Assembly (NCBI RefSeq): GCF_014695375.1
Contig: NZ_JACJOG010000038.1
Coordinates: forward strand, 186,001-250,000
DNA: 64,000 bases
Source of the DNA: Coleofasciculus sp. FACHB-T130
Lineage (GTDB): Bacteria > Cyanobacteriota > Cyanobacteriia > Cyanobacteriales > FACHB-T130
Direction: 5' to 3'
Below are positions 9,482 through 57,799 of the stretch, piece by piece. The stretch's first letter is position 1. Each line of letters starts with the position of its first letter. The position numbers and the translations under genes were made by a program. Below the pieces are notes generated by a model. That model was given only the letters and a program-made list of their open reading frames with translations. It searched no databases and had not been told where the DNA came from.

Positions 9482-12400
9482 TTAGCTAACTTTAAATCGA
9501 CCCACGTTTGCTTGCAGTTCTTGCGCCAACGCTAGCAATTCCTTAAAGGATGCCGATACATCGGTGGCTCCCGTTGAGGTTTTAGTGGCGATCGCTGCCA
9601 CATCGGTCATGGTTTTGGTGACTGCATCGGAAGCTTTGGATTGCACGACAGCCGCTTGGGCGATCGCTTCCACCAAGGCGCTGATCTGGGCGCTGGCAGT
9701 TGTAATTTTGTTCAGGCTTTGGCGGGTTTCATCCACCAGTTTCGTCCCTGTAACGACCTGCTCGGTGCCCGCTTCCATCGCCGCTACCACCTCATTAGTT
9801 TCTGCTTGAATGCCTGCAACCAGCTTTTCGATTTCCGCCGTTGCTGCCGCCGATTGCCGCGCTAGCGATCGCACTTCATCCGCAACGACGGCGAAGCCTC
9901 GACCCTCTTCCCCAGCGCGTGCCGCCTCAATTGAAGCATTGAGCGCCAACAAGTTCGTTTGAGCGGCAAAGGTGCCAATTAGGTTCACCACTTTGGAAAT
10001 CTTTTGCGAAGATTCGCCCAAACGCTTGACTTTTTTAGAGGTTTCTGCGACAGTTTCCCGAATCGCTAGAATCCCGTCCACCGTGCGGTTCATGGCAGCG
10101 TCACCCTCCTTCACAATCTGCGTCGCTTGTTGAACCGCAGCTTCCGCTTGTTCGGCATTGGCAGCAACCGCTCGAATCGAGGTGGACATTTCCTGAATTC
10201 GATCCAGAGCAGCTAAAATTTCCTCTGATTGCCGTAAAGCTTCTGCCGATAGCTCTTGAACAGAGACTTCATTGCTGCTGGTGGTTGCTGCCACTTGTTT
10301 GGCGGCGGTTTGCACCTGGCTAACAATTTTCCGTAAGCTACCGATCGTGGCATTGTAGGAGTCAGCAATCGTGCCAATTTCATCCTCAGTCACCTGCGCC
10401 CGAATGGTGAGGTCTCCTTTACTGACAGGATCGACTTCCAGCAGCAGTTCCAGCGCTCGTTTTTGCAGGGCTTCCTTGGCTGACCTTTGCTGTTCGGCAT
10501 TTGCAGATTGTTGGCGGGTCGCTTCCTCTTGCGCCGCCAGCAAAGTTTGAATCTGTTCCAGCAGCGTCGCTTGGTTGAGGGCAATACCCACTTGAGTTGT
10601 CAACTGGGTGAACAAATCGATTTCACCCTTCTGCCAAATGCGAGTCCCCGAACATTGATGAGCAATCATCAAGCCGAATAGCTCGTTATCTACTACGATG
10701 GGCACGACCAAGTTGGCTTTGACTTGAAAGCGCTCCAACATTTTAATGTGACACTCGTTCAGACCCGCTTGATAAATATCCTCAATCGCACGAATGCGCC
10801 CTTTGTTGTAGCTTCCCCCCTGCGTCTCTTTCAAGCAGGTATCTTCAACTTTGACTCCTTGAGTGGGCATCCAACCCGTCGCTACAGATTCTGCAATTAC
10901 CGTCCCATCCCAGTTCGCATCGAAGCGATAGACGATTAAGCGATCTGTTTTAAATGCGCGTCGCACCTCTTCGACCGCTGTATTCAGAATGTCTTCCAGC
11001 TTCAGAGATTCCCGAATGCGGAGAGTAATCATCGACAAAAGTTGCGATCGCGTGGCTTGAGCTTCTTTCTGTTCCAGATAGCTGATGCGGTCTATCGCCA
11101 AACCAACTTGAGTGGACAACTGCGTGCAGATAGCGACTTCAGACTGCTGCCAAGTCCGAGGGGTTGAACACTGCTGGGTACACATTAAGCCCAGTAGTTT
11201 GTCACCGCTAACAATCGGGGTGATCACATTGGCTTTGATTTTTAATCGCTCGTACAACTCAACGTGACAAGGGGCGAGATTCGCTTGATAAATGTCATCG
11301 ATAACAAACACGCGACCTTTGCGGTACAACTCTACCCCCGCCTCTGAGTCGGTGAAATAGGTATCTGCTACTTTCATGTTCATGCAGGTCGGTAATCCGG
11401 GCGTCACCGCTTCCGCAACTACATTCCCACTCCAGTCCGGGTTAAAGCGATACAAAAACACCCGTTCCGCATTCAGGATTTGTTGAGCGCCAATTACTGC
11501 TTTCTCGAAAACCTCTTTGACATCGAGAGATTCACGAGCGCTGTTGGCAATATCTGCAAACAATTGTGTCAAATTGGCTTCGACTTCTCGCTGTTTGGCT
11601 TCCGCTTCCTTCTGTTTGAGGAAACTGATTCGGTCTAAAGCTAAGCCGATTTGAGTAGATAACTGCGAGCAAAAATCTACTTCATACTGCTGCCAAGTCC
11701 GAGGAGTAGAACACTGCTGCGTACACATCAAGCCTAATAGTTTGTCACCGCTGACAATTGGGGTGATTACATTGGCTTTGATTTTTAATCGCTCGTACAG
11801 CTCAATGTGACAACCTGTAAGATTGGCTTGATAGATGTCATTAATGACAAATACGCGACCCTTGCGATACTTTTCTACACCCACATTCGAGTCGGTGAAG
11901 TAAGTATCGGTCACGGTCATTTTCAGGCACGAAGGTAAGCCAGTTGTCACCGCTTCCGCAACAACATCTCCACTCCAATCCGAGTTAAAGCGATACAAAA
12001 ACACTCGTTCTGCATTCAGGATTTGTTGAGCGCCAACAACGGCTTTTTCAAATACTTCCTTGACATCTAGCAACTCACGAGCGCTAGTAGCAATATCAGC
12101 ACACAGTTGAATGCGCTTAGCTTCAACTTCTTGCTGTTTTGCTTCAGTTTCTTTCTGTTCTAGGAAACTGATTCGGTCTAGAGCTAAGCCGACTTGAGTA
12201 GATAACTGCGAGCAAAAGTCTACTTCATACTGCTGCCAATTCCGAGGATTTGAACACTGTTGCGTACACAGCAAGCCTAATAGTTTATCACCGCTGACAA
12301 TCGGGGTAATCACATTGGCTCTAATTCTTAATCGCTCATACAACTCAACGTGGCAATAAGTCAAACCAGATTGATAAATATCATTAATGACAAATACGCG

Positions 12401-14905
12401 ACCATTGCGATATCTTTCTACCCCCACATTCGAGTCGGTGAAGTAAGTATCGGTAACAGTCATTTTCAGACAGGAAGGCCAACCCGGCATTACTGATTCA
12501 GCAACTACATCCCCACTCCAATCTGGGTTGAAGCGATATAAAAACACCCGTTCCGCATTCAGGATTTGTTGAGCGCCAACAACGGCTTTTTCAAATACTT
12601 CCTTGACATCGAGAGATTCACGAGCGCTAGTAGCAATATCGGCACACAGTTGAATGCGCTTAGCTTCAACTTCTTGCTGTTTTGCTTCAGCTTCCTTCTG
12701 TTCTAAGAAACTGATTCGGTCCAGAGCTAAGCCGACTTGAGTAGACAACTGCGAACAAAAATCGACTTCATACTGCTGCCAATTCCGAGCATTTGAACAC
12801 TGCTGCGTACACAGCAAACCTAATAGTTTATCACCGCTGACAATCGGGGTAATCACATTGGCTTTGATTTTTAATCGCTCATACAACTCAATGTGGCAAC
12901 CCGTAAGATTGGCTTTGTAGATGTCATTGATGACAAACACGCGACCATTGCGGTATCGTTCTACCCCCGCTGGAGAGTCGGTGAAGTAGGTATCCGTGAC
13001 GGTCATTTTTAAGCAGGAAGGCCAACCTGGAGCAATAGATTCCGCGACGATATCTCCACTCCAGTCTGGATTGAAGCGATACAAAAACACCCGTTCTGCT
13101 TTGAGGATTTGTTGAGTTCCTTGAACGGCTTTCTCGAAAATTTCTTTGACATCTAACGATTCTCTAGCGCTGGTGGCAATATCGGCACACAACTGTAATC
13201 GCTTGGCTTCAACTTCTTGTTGTTTAGCTTCAACTTCCCGCTTTTGCAAATAGCCAATCCGATCTATGGCTAGCCCTAATTGAGTGGACACCTGGGTACA
13301 GAAATCGACTTCAGACTGCTGCCAAGTCCGAGGATTAGAACACTGCTGCGTACACATCAAGCCGAGTAGTTTGTCGCCGCTAATCAGCGGGGTAATTACA
13401 TTGGCTTTGATTTTTAATCGCTCGTACAACTCAATGTGGCAAGGTGTGAGATTGGCTTTATAGATGTCATCAATGACAAAAACGCGGCCCTTCCGATAGA
13501 GTTCTACTCCCACCTTGGAAGAGGTGAAGTAGGTATCAGCTACCTTGATTTTCATGCAGGTCGGCAATCCGGGCGCTACCGCTTCGGCAACAACATAGCC
13601 ACTCCAGTCTGGATTGAAGCGATAGATAAATACTCGTTCTGCATTCAGGATTTGTTGCGTGCCTTGAACTGCTTTCTTGAAGACTTCATGGATATCGAGA
13701 GATTCTCTGGCACTGGTAGCAATATCGGCACATAGTTGTAATCGCTTGCCTTCAACTTCTTGCTTGCTTAATAAGTCTTTAACTCGTGCCACTAAGTTAT
13801 TGAAGCTGACAGCTAGAGTTTGGGTTTCAGTAGTCCCGCGAGGTTCAACGTAGGCATCCAAATTTCCGGCAGCAACCTGCTCTGATGTACCCGTCAATTC
13901 TTTCAAAGGAGCAGACCAGCGGCGTGCTAAACTCACCACAATGCCTGCACCTACGGCTCCCAAGGAAAGAAAAATTAGGACAAAAATTAGCCCATGCTCA
14001 TTTCCTGCGGCAGCAATTTCCGAAAGTTCAATTGAGGTGACACTGACCAAATCGATGCCAGGAACTGCGGCAAGGCTATACTTTCTGCCGTCCCGATCGA
14101 ATGAAGTACTCAGAACTAATTGTCCCTCTTGGCGAACGTAAGGGACAATGGTAAGTCCCTGGAGTTGACCTGTAGTGGCAACGTAGCTTGGTTTTTTCCC
14201 TAGGGTGGCGTTTTCCCCAAAATTAGCCTTTTGTACTTCTAGTTCGGCTAACAGAGCGGTGGCTGTTTGTAAAACCGCATCGCCACCCAACACTTCTTTC
14301 TGCGCGATCGCGCCATTAGATGTAATGGTACTAATAACGGCTTTGCTTGCCGGAGCCAAAATCTGAATTTTTTCAGTGTTACTCAGTCCTACATGCTCCA
14401 ACGGCACCGCTAGTTCGTCAAAGTTAGCAGCACGCGCAACATCAATAGTTAAGGAATTTTCTGCCAAAGACGACGAAATCAAAGCATCCTTGACCTTTAC
14501 GCCAGCCAAGTTGGAGGAAAGCATCGCGTCATTCCATAATTTCGTCTCGGTGCGCCCAGATGCTTGATAATTCGTCATCCCCCAGCTCACAATACCTGCG
14601 ATCGCTAGCGGTGCTAGTACCACAGGTAAGATTGTCCTCAACAATTGGCTGCGGAGCGTGGGACTTTTAGATAGATTCAATTGTGGAGACGGCGGGTTAA
14701 GCTGGTCTTGCTCTGTTTGCTCTAGCTGCTCTTTTCCCTTGTTCTCTACCTTTTGTTCAAGATTTTGAGATCCGTTTAAATCTTGTTGGTTCGGAATGAG
14801 CTTAAGAGGAGGGGGTTGATGGCTAACACCTGTCTTGCGACCCCGGAGACGACGCTTAATATTGGCTTTTGTTGTATCTGATTGAGGATCGGAAGGCGTC
14901 TTCAT
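9482..14905 (-). CDS. pixJ: Methyl-accepting phototaxis receptor with six bilin-type GAF domains, PixJ-like
   Basis: 1807-aa receptor. Order: basic/proline-rich cytoplasmic leader; transmembrane helix about 88-108; periplasmic sensor segment; transmembrane helix about 303-325; HAMP; six GAF domains starting near residues 388, 569, 750, 931, 1112 and 1290; a second HAMP-like segment (about 1490-1545); and an MCP signalling domain with the hairpin motif [15 protein letters not shown]. Every GAF has the Cys-His pair (CHIEL, CHVEL or CHIKM) that anchors bilin in cyanobacteriochromes. GAFs 1-5 have DTYF where DXCF-type proteins have a second Cys; GAF6 has DTCL (Cys1357 and Cys1385). GAFs 1-5 also share a Cys in the SCLKM/TCMKI segment. 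The order matches Synechocystis PixJ, which has only two GAFs. Chromophore and colour response are inferred. Confidence 0.92.
10990..13750 (-). repeat. Tandem ~543-bp GAF-coding repeats in pixJ
   Basis: Five consecutive units of about 543 bp (181 codons), each coding one GAF domain plus a coiled linker ([15 protein letters not shown] type), are similar enough in DNA to show the same stretches over and over, for example around the ELYERL and GDKLLGL codons. The sixth GAF is much more diverged. This indicates expansion by unequal recombination of an ancestral unit. Confidence 0.88.
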
Positions 14906-15027
14906 AGTTTAAACTTTGCTAAAGGTAGATGAGTGTGGCGAGTTGAGTTGATTAAGGGATATAGATAGAAGTTAAAAAATTGAAATTCCAGACCCAAAGA
15001 AAGACATCTGGATATTCAAACAGCCAT

Positions 15028-54356: not shown

Positions 54357-54431
54357 CTGTACAGGAATCTTTGGATTCCGATAAAGGTTCTTATAGAAAC
54401 TTTAAAATACTGTAGCAATAATTTAGTAGTG

Positions 54432-55160
54432 ATGCCCCGGATACTCGTCATCGACGACGACGCTGCGATCGCAGAATTAGTTACCATCAATCTGGAAATG
54501 GCTGGATACGATGTCAGCCAAGCACCAGATGGCATTAAAGGTCAGGCACTGGCTTTGCAACTGCAACCAGACCTGATTATGCTTGACCTAATGCTGCCCA
54601 ATGTGGACGGTTTCACCGTCTGCCAGCGGTTGCGGCGGGATGAACGCACTGCCGATATTCCGGTGTTAATGTTGACAGCACTGGGTCAGACTCAAGATAA
54701 GGTAGAAGGCTTTAATGCCGGAGCCGATGATTACCTGACCAAGCCGTTTGAACTCGAAGAAATGCTGGCACGGGTCAGAGCCTTGCTGCGACGAACAGAC
54801 CGTATTCCCCAAGCCGCCAAACACTCGGAAATCTTGCACTATGGCTCTTTAACCTTAGTCCCAGAACGCTTTGAGGCTATTTGGTTCAATCAGACAGTGA
54901 AGTTAACGCATCTGGAGTTTGAATTACTGCACTGCTTACTCCAGCGTCATGGTCAAACCGTTTCTCCTAGTGAAATCCTGCGGGAAGTTTGGGGCTACGA
55001 TCCCGACGATGACATTGAAACGATTCGGGTGCATATTCGGCACTTGAGAACGAAGCTAGAACCCGATCCCCGCCACCCGCGCTATATTAAGACCGTCTAT
55101 GGTGCGGGCTACTGTCTGGAGTTGCCGACTGAAGAGCAAGTTAGCACAGACGCAAGCTGA
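54432..55160 (+). CDS. rpaA: Response regulator RpaA
   Basis: 242-aa OmpR-family regulator. The REC domain (residues 1-120) has phospho-Asp in [14 protein letters not shown] and Lys in DYLTKPFE; the winged helix DNA-binding domain (about 135-235) contains [33 protein letters not shown] and [14 protein letters not shown]. The sequence follows cyanobacterial RpaA closely, including [16 protein letters not shown]. RpaA is the output regulator of the circadian system, receiving phosphate from SasA, and also affects phycobilisome-photosystem coupling. ATG 54432 is used; an adjoining GTG is in frame. It converges with a light-sensor-type kinase gene. RpaA rather than RpaB is favoured but made from memory. 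Confidence 0.88.
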
Positions 55161-55327: not shown

Positions 55328-57799
55328 TTAAGCCACCCGATGGGGCTGTATAGATAGAGGAATTGGGCAATGCGCCCCTAAAAGAGATTCCTCTTCTACC
55401 TTCTGGATCGGAATTTCGATAATAAACTCTGTTCCCTTTCCCGGTGTTGACACGCACTCGAGTTGACCCCCGTGACGTTCAACCACAACTTGGTAGCTAA
55501 TGGACAAGCCCAAGCCAGTCCCTTTTCCCACGGCTTTCGTCGTAAAGAAGGGGTCAAAAATTTGTTTCTGAATTGCTTCGGGAATGCCAGGGCCATTATC
55601 CGCAATCCTGATGACAACAGAGGCAGGATTGGGACTTAGGGATGTAGGGCTTTGCCCTTCTCGAAGGGTGGGATGAGGATTGGCATTGAATTCATCCTTT
55701 ATCCTGATTCCTTCATCCTTCAAAGAGGTGCGAATGGTAATCTGGCTGGGGTTGGCTTTGAGATCCTCCGGCGTCAGCGATGCTCCTCCTGCGGAGACTT
55801 GCTGGGCATTGTATTCTTCTAAAGCATCAATTGCATTACTGAGGAGATTCATAAACACTTGGTTGAGTTGCCCAGCGTAACAATCTACTTTGGGCAAATC
55901 GCCGTATTCTTTAATAATCTGAATTTTGGGATGGGAGCTGTCTTCTTTCAACCGATGCTGCAAAATCAACAGCGTGTTATCTATGCCCTCATGAATATCA
56001 ACCGCCTTCTTCTGGGATTCATCCAGGCGGGAGAAATTCCGCAGCGACAAGACCAAATCGCGGATGCGGTCGGCTCCCATTTTCATGGAAGTCAGTAGTT
56101 TGGGAAAATCTTCCACCAAGAAATCTAAATCGATATCCTGATTTGCAACTTGAATTTCGGTAGGGGGTTTGGGAAAGTGCTTTTGATAGAGATTTAACAG
56201 GTTCAGCAGGTCATGAGCATACTGATTCGCATGGTCGAGATTGCCGTAGATGAAGGAGACTGGATTATTAATTTCATGGGCAACACCTGCAACCAACTGC
56301 CCTAAACTGGACATCTTTTCGCTCTGAATTAGCTGAGATTGGGTTTGTCCCAATTCTCCCAAGGTTCGTTTTAGTTGGGTTGTTTGTTCTTTTAGCTGCG
56401 CTTCTGATTTCAGCCAAGCGATTTCTGCCTGTTTGCGTTCGACCAGTTCGGCGTTTAGCTGTTGGAAGAGAGTGGATTGCTTAATTGCGATCGCTAGCTG
56501 CACGCTCAGCTGTTTGAGCAATTCTACTTCTGATTCTTGCCATTTTCGGGGTTCTCGACAGTGATGGGCAATCAGCAACCCCCATAAATTTTCCCCTTGC
56601 AGAATCGGAACTACCAAGTTAGCTCTCACCTGAAACTGGGCAAGTAAATCAATATGGCATTGTTGGATACCAGCAGTATAGATATTGTCAATCGCTCGAA
56701 CCCGACCTTGCTGGTATGGCGAGACGTAGCTTTTCCCAAAGCAAGGATCTTGGATGCTGGTTCCTAAAATAGGCGTCCAATCCTCACCGACCGACTCTAC
56801 AACCACAACTCCGTTCCGATCTGGATCGAAGCGGTAAATGAGTACCCGGTCAGTAGAGAGAAAATGGCGCACTTCTGCCACAGTTGTATTGAGAACTTCT
56901 TCTAAATCTAGAGACTGACGGATGCGCTTAGCGATCGCTCCGACCAGCCGTTCTCTCAAAAATTGCTGTCGCGACGCTTCCTCTGCTTGCTTGCGTTCGG
57001 TAATATCCATCACCGTTCCCATCATCCGCACGCACTTCCCCGTATTGTCGCGCACAACGGCACCCCGTGACGCCACCCAGCCAATTCCATCAGGACGAAT
57101 TACGCGATACTCCATCTTTAAGTCTTTCCCGACTTCTACGATGCTCGCAATCTCAAGTCCCACGCGGTAGCAATCTTCAGGATGAATGCATTGGAGATAA
57201 GCCTCGTAGGTGCCAGTAAAGGAACCAGGAGCCAGACCAAAAATCCCTTCCACCTCTTCAGACCAAGTCACCCGATTGGTTCCCAGATCCCAGTCCCAAA
57301 CCCCCATACTTGCCGCACCCAGAGCCAGCCGCAGCCGCGTTTCCCCTTCGCACTGCGCCTCTTGGGCGGCTTTACGCTCGGTAATATCCGTCTGGACGCC
57401 AATAAATTGCGTCACCCGACCCTCGTCGTCATACACCGGCGAAATACTCAGGTCATTCCAGAAAGGCGTCCCATCTTTGCGATAGTTCTTGAGAACAACC
57501 TGGCATTCTTTCCCCGTCCGCACGGCTTGACGAATTTGCTCAATTGCGGCTGGATCTGTATCATTTCCTTGCAAAAATCGGCAGTTTCGTCCCAAAACTT
57601 CGGCGGTCGAATACCCGGTTATTTTTTCAAAGGCAGGATTGCAATAGATAATTGGATTATTTGGCAGACTGGCGTCGCTAATGACGATGCCACAGCTGGT
57701 TGCTGCCATCGCTCGGTCATACAGCCTTAGTGTCCCCGTGTCCCCTTGGTGCCCCGTGAGGTCTTGGAACTCCCCACATCTAGCTTGCTGGCTTGCCAT
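55328..57799 (-). CDS. LOV-PAS-bilin GAF sensor histidine kinase
   Basis: 823-aa soluble kinase. Domain 1 (about residues 28-142) is a PAS domain with the full LOV signature: GRNCRFLQG with the flavin-adduct Cys73, NYRKDG (Asn105), FWND (Asn115) and FIGVQ (Gln136). Domain 2 (about 155-270) is an ordinary PAS. Domain 3 (about 285-455) is a GAF with both cyanobacteriochrome cysteines: Cys353 in DPCF and Cys381 in QQCHIDLL. A coiled linker, the H box with His508 (VAGVAHEINNP) and an HATPase with NLLSNAID, DNGPGIP and GKGTGLGLS follow. A ~30-residue insert interrupts the HATPase. No receiver is attached; rpaA lies convergent downstream. Dual flavin and bilin light sensing is inferred. Confidence 0.92.
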   Translation of the reverse strand: MASQQARCGEFQDLTGHQGDTGTLRLYDRAMAATSCGIVISDASLPNNPIIYCNPAFEKITGYSTAEVLGRNCRFLQGNDTDPAAIEQIRQAVRTGKECQVVLKNYRKDGTPFWNDLSISPVYDDEGRVTQFIGVQTDITERKAAQEAQCEGETRLRLALGAASMGVWDWDLGTNRVTWSEEVEGIFGLAPGSFTGTYEAYLQCIHPEDCYRVGLEIASIVEVGKDLKMEYRVIRPDGIGWVASRGAVVRDNTGKCVRMMGTVMDITERKQAEEASRQQFLRERLVGAIAKRIRQSLDLEEVLNTTVAEVRHFLSTDRVLIYRFDPDRNGVVVVESVGEDWTPILGTSIQDPCFGKSYVSPYQQGRVRAIDNIYTAGIQQCHIDLLAQFQVRANLVVPILQGENLWGLLIAHHCREPRKWQESEVELLKQLSVQLAIAIKQSTLFQQLNAELVERKQAEIAWLKSEAQLKEQTTQLKRTLGELGQTQSQLIQSEKMSSLGQLVAGVAHEINNPVSFIYGNLDHANQYAHDLLNLLNLYQKHFPKPPTEIQVANQDIDLDFLVEDFPKLLTSMKMGADRIRDLVLSLRNFSRLDESQKKAVDIHEGIDNTLLILQHRLKEDSSHPKIQIIKEYGDLPKVDCYAGQLNQVFMNLLSNAIDALEEYNAQQVSAGGASLTPEDLKANPSQITIRTSLKDEGIRIKDEFNANPHPTLREGQSPTSLSPNPASVVIRIADNGPGIPEAIQKQIFDPFFTTKAVGKGTGLGLSISYQVVVERHGGQLECVSTPGKGTEFIIEIPIQKVEEESLLGAHCPIPLSIQPHRVA

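Follow-up and report, generated by a model that had tools for sequence, protein, structure and literature searches.

Few natural receptors carry two different light-absorbing pigments, and the locus considered here raises the question of whether one kinase of Coleofasciculus sp. FACHB-T130 could be such a receptor. In the window, that is, the whole stretch of 64,000 nucleotides that was analysed, an open reading frame at 55328–57799 (minus strand, as in the original prediction, like all features of the kinase given below) begins with ATG and encodes 823 amino acids, and its N-terminal MASQQAR is shared with the ortholog from Trichocoleus sp. FACHB-40. Pfam profiles order the protein as LOV, PAS_3, GAF and histidine kinase, with matches to PAS_9 (residues 36–141, 102 bits), PAS_3 (residues 177–263, 57011–57271; 111 bits summed over two stretches), GAF (residues 298–439, 92 bits) and HATPase_c (residues 720–799, 55403–55642; 85 bits). 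Because these matches include no membrane domain, the protein is probably soluble. We put the probability at roughly three in four that it is a dual-chromophore sensor histidine kinase, in which a flavin-binding LOV domain and a two-cysteine, bilin-binding GAF domain feed one signalling helix.

In the kinase part, HisKA reached 23.2 bits at residues 499–522, short of the Pfam cut-off of 26.9, although the H-box AHEINNP with the phospho-acceptor H508 is present (residues 507–513, 56261–56281; profile, alignment and residue check); the N, G1 and G2 boxes of HATPase_c read NLLSNA, DNGPGIP and GTGLGL. Between the N and G1 boxes of this ATP-binding domain lies the stretch NPHPTLREGQSPTSLSPNP (55640–55690). 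Trichocoleus has an unrelated, shorter sequence at this place, and the DNA core of the stretch is present in a congener (G386); it may be a small insertion.

Evidence for the LOV domain (residues 25–148, 57356–57727) comes from Pfam, matches to solved structures, individual residues and predicted fold. The photoactive cysteine lies in GRNCRFLQ and is accompanied by the flavin-contacting N, N and Q; a script check found each residue where the original prediction had placed the complete set (C73 in GRNCRFL, N105, N115 and Q136). The nearest solved chain was 9vf7 (E 4e-42), a Meiothermus LOV domain according to its title, and phototropin and aureochrome LOV domains were also close in the search of PDB sequences. 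Consistently, the predicted fold matched CagFbFP, MrLOV and several LOV domains with Z of about 20 and rmsd of 0.7–2.2. Among NCBIfam families, the protein stayed under the whole-protein cut-offs of both the YtvA family (NF052652; 166.9 bits, cut-off 250) and the blue-light-activated histidine kinases (NF052306; 156.2 bits, cut-off 450), the best-scoring stretch for the latter being residues 25–150.

The GAF domain (residues 282–450, 56450–56956) was assigned to the two-cysteine, or DXCF, cyanobacteriochrome type by profile, alignment, residues and fold. Searches against solved chains returned 6oap (E 1e-58), which we take to be PPHK, engineered derivatives of NpR3784, and 3vv4 (E 2e-38), presumably TePixJ. 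Given E-values of up to 4e-42 for the LOV domain and 1e-58 for the GAF domain against solved photoreceptors, chance resemblance is excluded. The DPCF and CH motifs of TePixJ align column by column with D351-P352-C353-F354 (56738–56749) and with C381-H382 (56654–56659), so that both the second cysteine, C353, and the canonical bilin cysteine, C381, are where they had been predicted, again by script check. Among 133 distinct GAF matches ungapped at both sites, a set biased toward the query and from which gapped matches were dropped, the second cysteine occurred in 77 of the 88 that have the canonical cysteine versus 5 of the 45 that lack it. As for the pigment itself, the host genome contains one match to the Fe-bilin reductases (PF05996), and therefore synthesis of a bilin, for instance phycocyanobilin, is probably within the reach of the cell. 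The central claim of the original prediction, that a LOV domain and a DXCF-type GAF share one kinase, is thus borne out by the Pfam order, the residues and the matches to solved structures.

Which photocycle such a GAF would follow is less straightforward. Its identity is highest to PPHK, at 53%, followed by an engineered NpR3784 derivative at 52%, both of which lack the second cysteine, and is 41% to TePixJ. Since these closest relatives are without that residue, the photocycle could depart from the usual one of DXCF domains; it might be of a blue/orange kind in which phycocyanobilin stays unisomerized, or might involve a red-absorbing state, and the protein would then join blue to orange or red rather than sense blue twice. 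NpR3784 has been called a prototype of a red/green group, in a reference title listed in PMC6336887. Against this reading, the window GAF has the second cysteine absent from PPHK and the NpR3784 derivative, and it lacks the Trp of WXDXXL, described in PMC11284453 as the defining motif of the red/green lineage (XRG); I349 occupies that place. With its defining Trp missing, membership of the red/green lineage was discarded. The same paper attributes to an Ile a supporting role in isomerization to phycoviolobilin, and I410 matches this residue, the equivalence being judged from equal spacing to the canonical cysteine. Taken together, the GAF evidence makes a two-cysteine photocycle likely, and we regard the atypical alternative as a serious but minority possibility. 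A GAF tree with three references had weak deep forks and placed TePixJ on a long branch.

To see how the two sensors might be connected, we turned to the predicted structure. An AlphaFold2 model built from 11 sequences had a mean pLDDT of 68.3, with the LOV and PAS domains mostly at 80–90 and the GAF domain at 57–84, the minimum of 57 falling in the block 351–360 that contains C353. The GAF model superposed on TePixJ (4glq, so named in its title; Z 19.8, 146 residues, rmsd 2.6) and on AnPixJ (3w2z; Z 20.0, 171 residues, rmsd 2.4). Long helices join LOV to PAS (140–162), PAS to GAF (267–295) and GAF toward the kinase (422–487, 56339–56536; the last residues at low confidence).

On this basis, the dual-chromophore reading can be given a mechanism. 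The LOV domain would bind FMN and, in blue light, form a transient adduct at C73 that decays in darkness. The GAF domain would attach phycocyanobilin at C381, with C353 adding reversibly to the bilin; under blue light, its blue-absorbing, C353-linked dark state would convert to a longer-wavelength photoproduct, probably green-absorbing, which would persist until a second colour resets it. Both domains would act in series on the helical linkers, through PAS into the kinase, so that LOV would report the quantity of blue light, fading in the dark, and GAF would hold the colour ratio as a latched setting. Via one helix, the two would jointly set autophosphorylation of H508. The pigments (chromophore occupancy), the colours and the serial integration, or logic, of the kinase are inferred, whereas domain order, residues, homology, conservation and the bilin-reductase gene were observed. 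Together with the profiles and the predicted fold, these observations give good support to what each domain is taken to be and to the prediction of two chromophores.

The original prediction had also called such hybrids rare. In a sample of the phylum, the LOV-PAS-cyanobacteriochrome arrangement was found in at least 5 of 386 genomes (the host, G197, G193, G282 and G346), and in a sample of the order the layout was found in at least 12 of 388; both counts are lower bounds, as four candidates were scored per genome. Ten of the order-sample carriers keep every LOV residue that was scored and the two GAF cysteines, one of them (G551) with CY for CH, in a residue check that covered rows with a locus (G490, where the match spans both domains, is a row without one). 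The other two are damaged, G547 with the LOV Q changed to L and G560 without the second cysteine. From a search of genome contigs, 80 loci were kept. Among these, fusions with all scored LOV residues and the two GAF cysteines are present in Trichocoleus sp. FACHB-40 (77%; locus L009, probably the same assembly as G390 and L227), in a Coleofasciculus fusion (L011), in a Symploca fusion with CY for CH (L012), in L035, with DTCL for DXCF, and in five Pseudanabaena fusions (L014–L018), four of which carry D for N before the LOV cysteine. Two loci are damaged, L010 by a change of Q136 to L and L013 by a change of the second cysteine to F (L206–L209 repeat L010–L013). Orthologs of the window kinase occur across other genera and families, at identities of 95% (G386), 77% (G387 and G390), 69% (G401), 68% (G197 and G389) and 67% (G411). 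The layout is therefore uncommon, not unique. Rarity holds for the phylum sample, but it has to be set against a conserved ortholog group, a separate Pseudanabaena version and paralogs in the host itself, and it needs qualifying because the window kinase shares its genome with at least three further LOV and two-cysteine proteins.

Among 24 stretches around matches in the host genome, at least four open reading frames have an intact LOV and two-cysteine GAF: the window kinase, L090 (1302 amino acids), L091 (2162) and L092 (1214). A further paralog, L089 (3020–5593, plus strand), has the same layout, but its LOV is changed (NCFFLQ, Q to H) and its GAF reads CQ where CH is expected. This paralog type exists in two species, as L193 of G386 also has CQ replacing CH; the GAF match of the type is split into two pieces by an insert, and the LOV lacks the Gln in the host copy but keeps Cys, N, N and Q in G386. 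L091 (contig C37, 2301–8786, plus strand) combines ETR1_N, several PAS domains, LOV, a two-cysteine GAF, histidine kinase and receiver, and is possibly an ethylene and two-pigment light sensor. Elsewhere in the window (9485–14908, minus strand) lies a HAMP/MCP protein of 1808 amino acids with six cyanobacteriochrome-type GAF domains, five with DTYF instead of DXCF and the last with DTCL; it looks like a phototaxis receptor.

The members in which one site has been lost (L010 and L013), together with the changed LOV and the CQ of L089, are what would be expected if one sensor dominated, with the GAF domain as the working photoreceptor and LOV serving a structural or redox role, or with the two roles exchanged. 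This is improbable in our view: the LOV Cys, N, N and Q and both GAF cysteines are intact in the window kinase as well as in the ten order-sample carriers noted above, and LOV and GAF were the most identical of the four domains in all three ortholog comparisons. Identities for LOV, GAF, PAS and kinase, respectively, were 96%, 98%, 88% and 93% to G386, 85%, 82%, 61% and 76% to Trichocoleus, and 70%, 70%, 64% and 66% to G197. The ratio of non-synonymous to synonymous change (dN/dS) was lowest for LOV and GAF among the four domains in the two usable comparisons, namely G386 (LOV 0.09, GAF 0.13, PAS 0.22, kinase 0.18, with the coil at 0.13) and Trichocoleus (LOV 0.09, GAF 0.05, PAS 0.39, kinase 0.11, coil 0.29). 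This ranking does not recur against G197 (GAF 0.11, PAS 0.08, kinase 0.08, LOV not computable), a comparison in which synonymous change is saturated or nearly so. Judged from sequence, both sensor domains are being kept.

Gene neighbourhood bears on both the partner and the descent of the kinase. Its convergent neighbour (54429–55160, plus strand) encodes a response regulator whose best PDB match was 9dvt_R, named RpaA (3e-144 over residues 2–239). RpaA adjoins the kinase in the window and in the congener G386, where both genes as a unit have the opposite orientation with respect to lpxB. A match to RpaA was not found in the stretches around the kinase of L009, L171 and L223–L227. We set RpaA aside as a proven partner, given that adjacency was seen in the window and G386 but not in those stretches and that RpaA is a single conserved copy in each of the 12 genomes in which it was counted, the host included; it is a possible, candidate partner. 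The genes bamA-lpxC-fabZ-lpxA-lpxB precede the kinase in the window and in L223, L226 and L227. The lpx genes of G386 lie 3 kb away with the kinase inverted relative to them, and there is no lpx match in the stretches around the kinase of L224 (G389) and L225 (G401). With neighbourhoods this mixed, synteny supports descent for some orthologs only.

How often the pairing arose was addressed with a GAF tree of 88 rows. Eight Pseudanabaena-type fusions fell apart from the window clade, which itself includes rows without a LOV domain seen in the available stretch. A single origin was rejected when all 24 distinct fusion GAFs were held to one clade (p 0.014), and therefore the pairing was either assembled repeatedly or LOV was lost repeatedly, with the proviso that some rows scored as LOV-free are cut stretches. 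A core of 21 fusion GAFs, picked after viewing the tree, was not rejected as one clade (p 0.33), nor were the same 21 fusions on the LOV tree (p 0.13). The Pseudanabaena type (L014–L018, L115, L116 and L120) is likewise built as LOV-PAS-two-cysteine GAF, with 306–308 residues between the LOV and GAF cysteines; in alignment, L014–L018 differ clearly from the window kinase in the histidine kinase part and have a different middle PAS. The host is rich in related sensor kinases (215 matches to the kinase described here), and fusions and LOV-free rows are intermingled in the GAF tree, yet ordinary shuffling of two domains common in these genomes, brought together by chance and without functional pairing, seems still more doubtful than a single dominant sensor, as orthologs persist across genera and families and beside the same lpx genes in three other genomes, and both light domains are kept.

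Spacing offers a further clue. Of 24 distinct fusions, Pseudanabaena included, 18 have a distance of 308 or 309 from the LOV cysteine to the GAF cysteine, as counted within 255–360 (two fusions fall outside this range, at 507 and 181). Control distances in non-LOV PAS-PAS-GAF proteins ranged from 296 to 349, with 3 of 30 at 308 or 309, although some of these may be to the wrong PAS. The constancy hints at a required register, in a count dominated by close relatives; as proof of one it was set aside because of the kinship of the rows, the outliers at 507 and 181 and the uncertain control PAS. It is conceivable, if speculative, that LOV and two-cysteine kinases form a recurrent dual-chromophore class in filamentous cyanobacteria, assembled on several occasions with an almost identical helical register, and that they compute on one helix a non-additive function of blue intensity, carried by a flavin signal that fades fast, and of the blue-to-green or blue-to-orange ratio, carried by a latched bilin signal, so that the output would separate the quantity of light from its quality.

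Several known systems resemble the window kinase in part. TePixJ (3vv4, 4glq) shares the aligned DPCF and CH cysteines and the predicted fold, but its entry describes a methyl-accepting chemotaxis protein, whereas the GAF considered here would drive a kinase and is preceded by a LOV domain. Brucella abortus LOV-HK (6ph4, 6pps) has the same LOV-PAS-kinase order, and its chains gave the best Foldseek E-values, with large rmsd across several domains; the titles of these entries name LOV, PAS and kinase only, and do not mention a bilin GAF. PPHK, with the closest solved GAF, is a dual-sensor histidine kinase with a cyanobacteriochrome GAF, though one without the second cysteine; its other input is phosphorylation, not a second light, and one entry title mentions BeF3. 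Neochrome unites phytochrome and LOV-type units. Neochrome, Ppr (PYP and bacteriophytochrome) and dualchrome (cryptochrome and phytochrome) are described as single polypeptides with two photosensory units and different chromophores (PMC9614035, PMC5812497, PMC11879098), and none of them, as described there, pairs LOV with a cyanobacteriochrome. A 2022 review, in a passage on receptors with several photosensory units, names neochromes, Ppr and cyanobacteriochrome arrays (PMC9614035). A natural LOV-cyanobacteriochrome protein was not found in the accessible text of the open-access literature searched; subscription surveys may list the architecture. One survey, by Mandalari et al. in 2013, is reportedly of bilin and flavin receptors. 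In the engineered kinase YHF, a LOV and a heme-PAS sensor are integrated by one kinase with positive cooperativity (PMC6798134), which shows that cooperation between two sensors on one kinase is possible; YHF senses light and oxygen.

If the dual-chromophore reading is true, the kinase would provide a tractable bacterial system for studying the integration of two light signals on a single helix, as well as a ready-made two-colour optogenetic part. For the organism, the pairing could let the cell read both the brightness of blue light and the colour of the light, a proposal, open to experiment, of the way in which photosynthetic cells may tell bright from blue.
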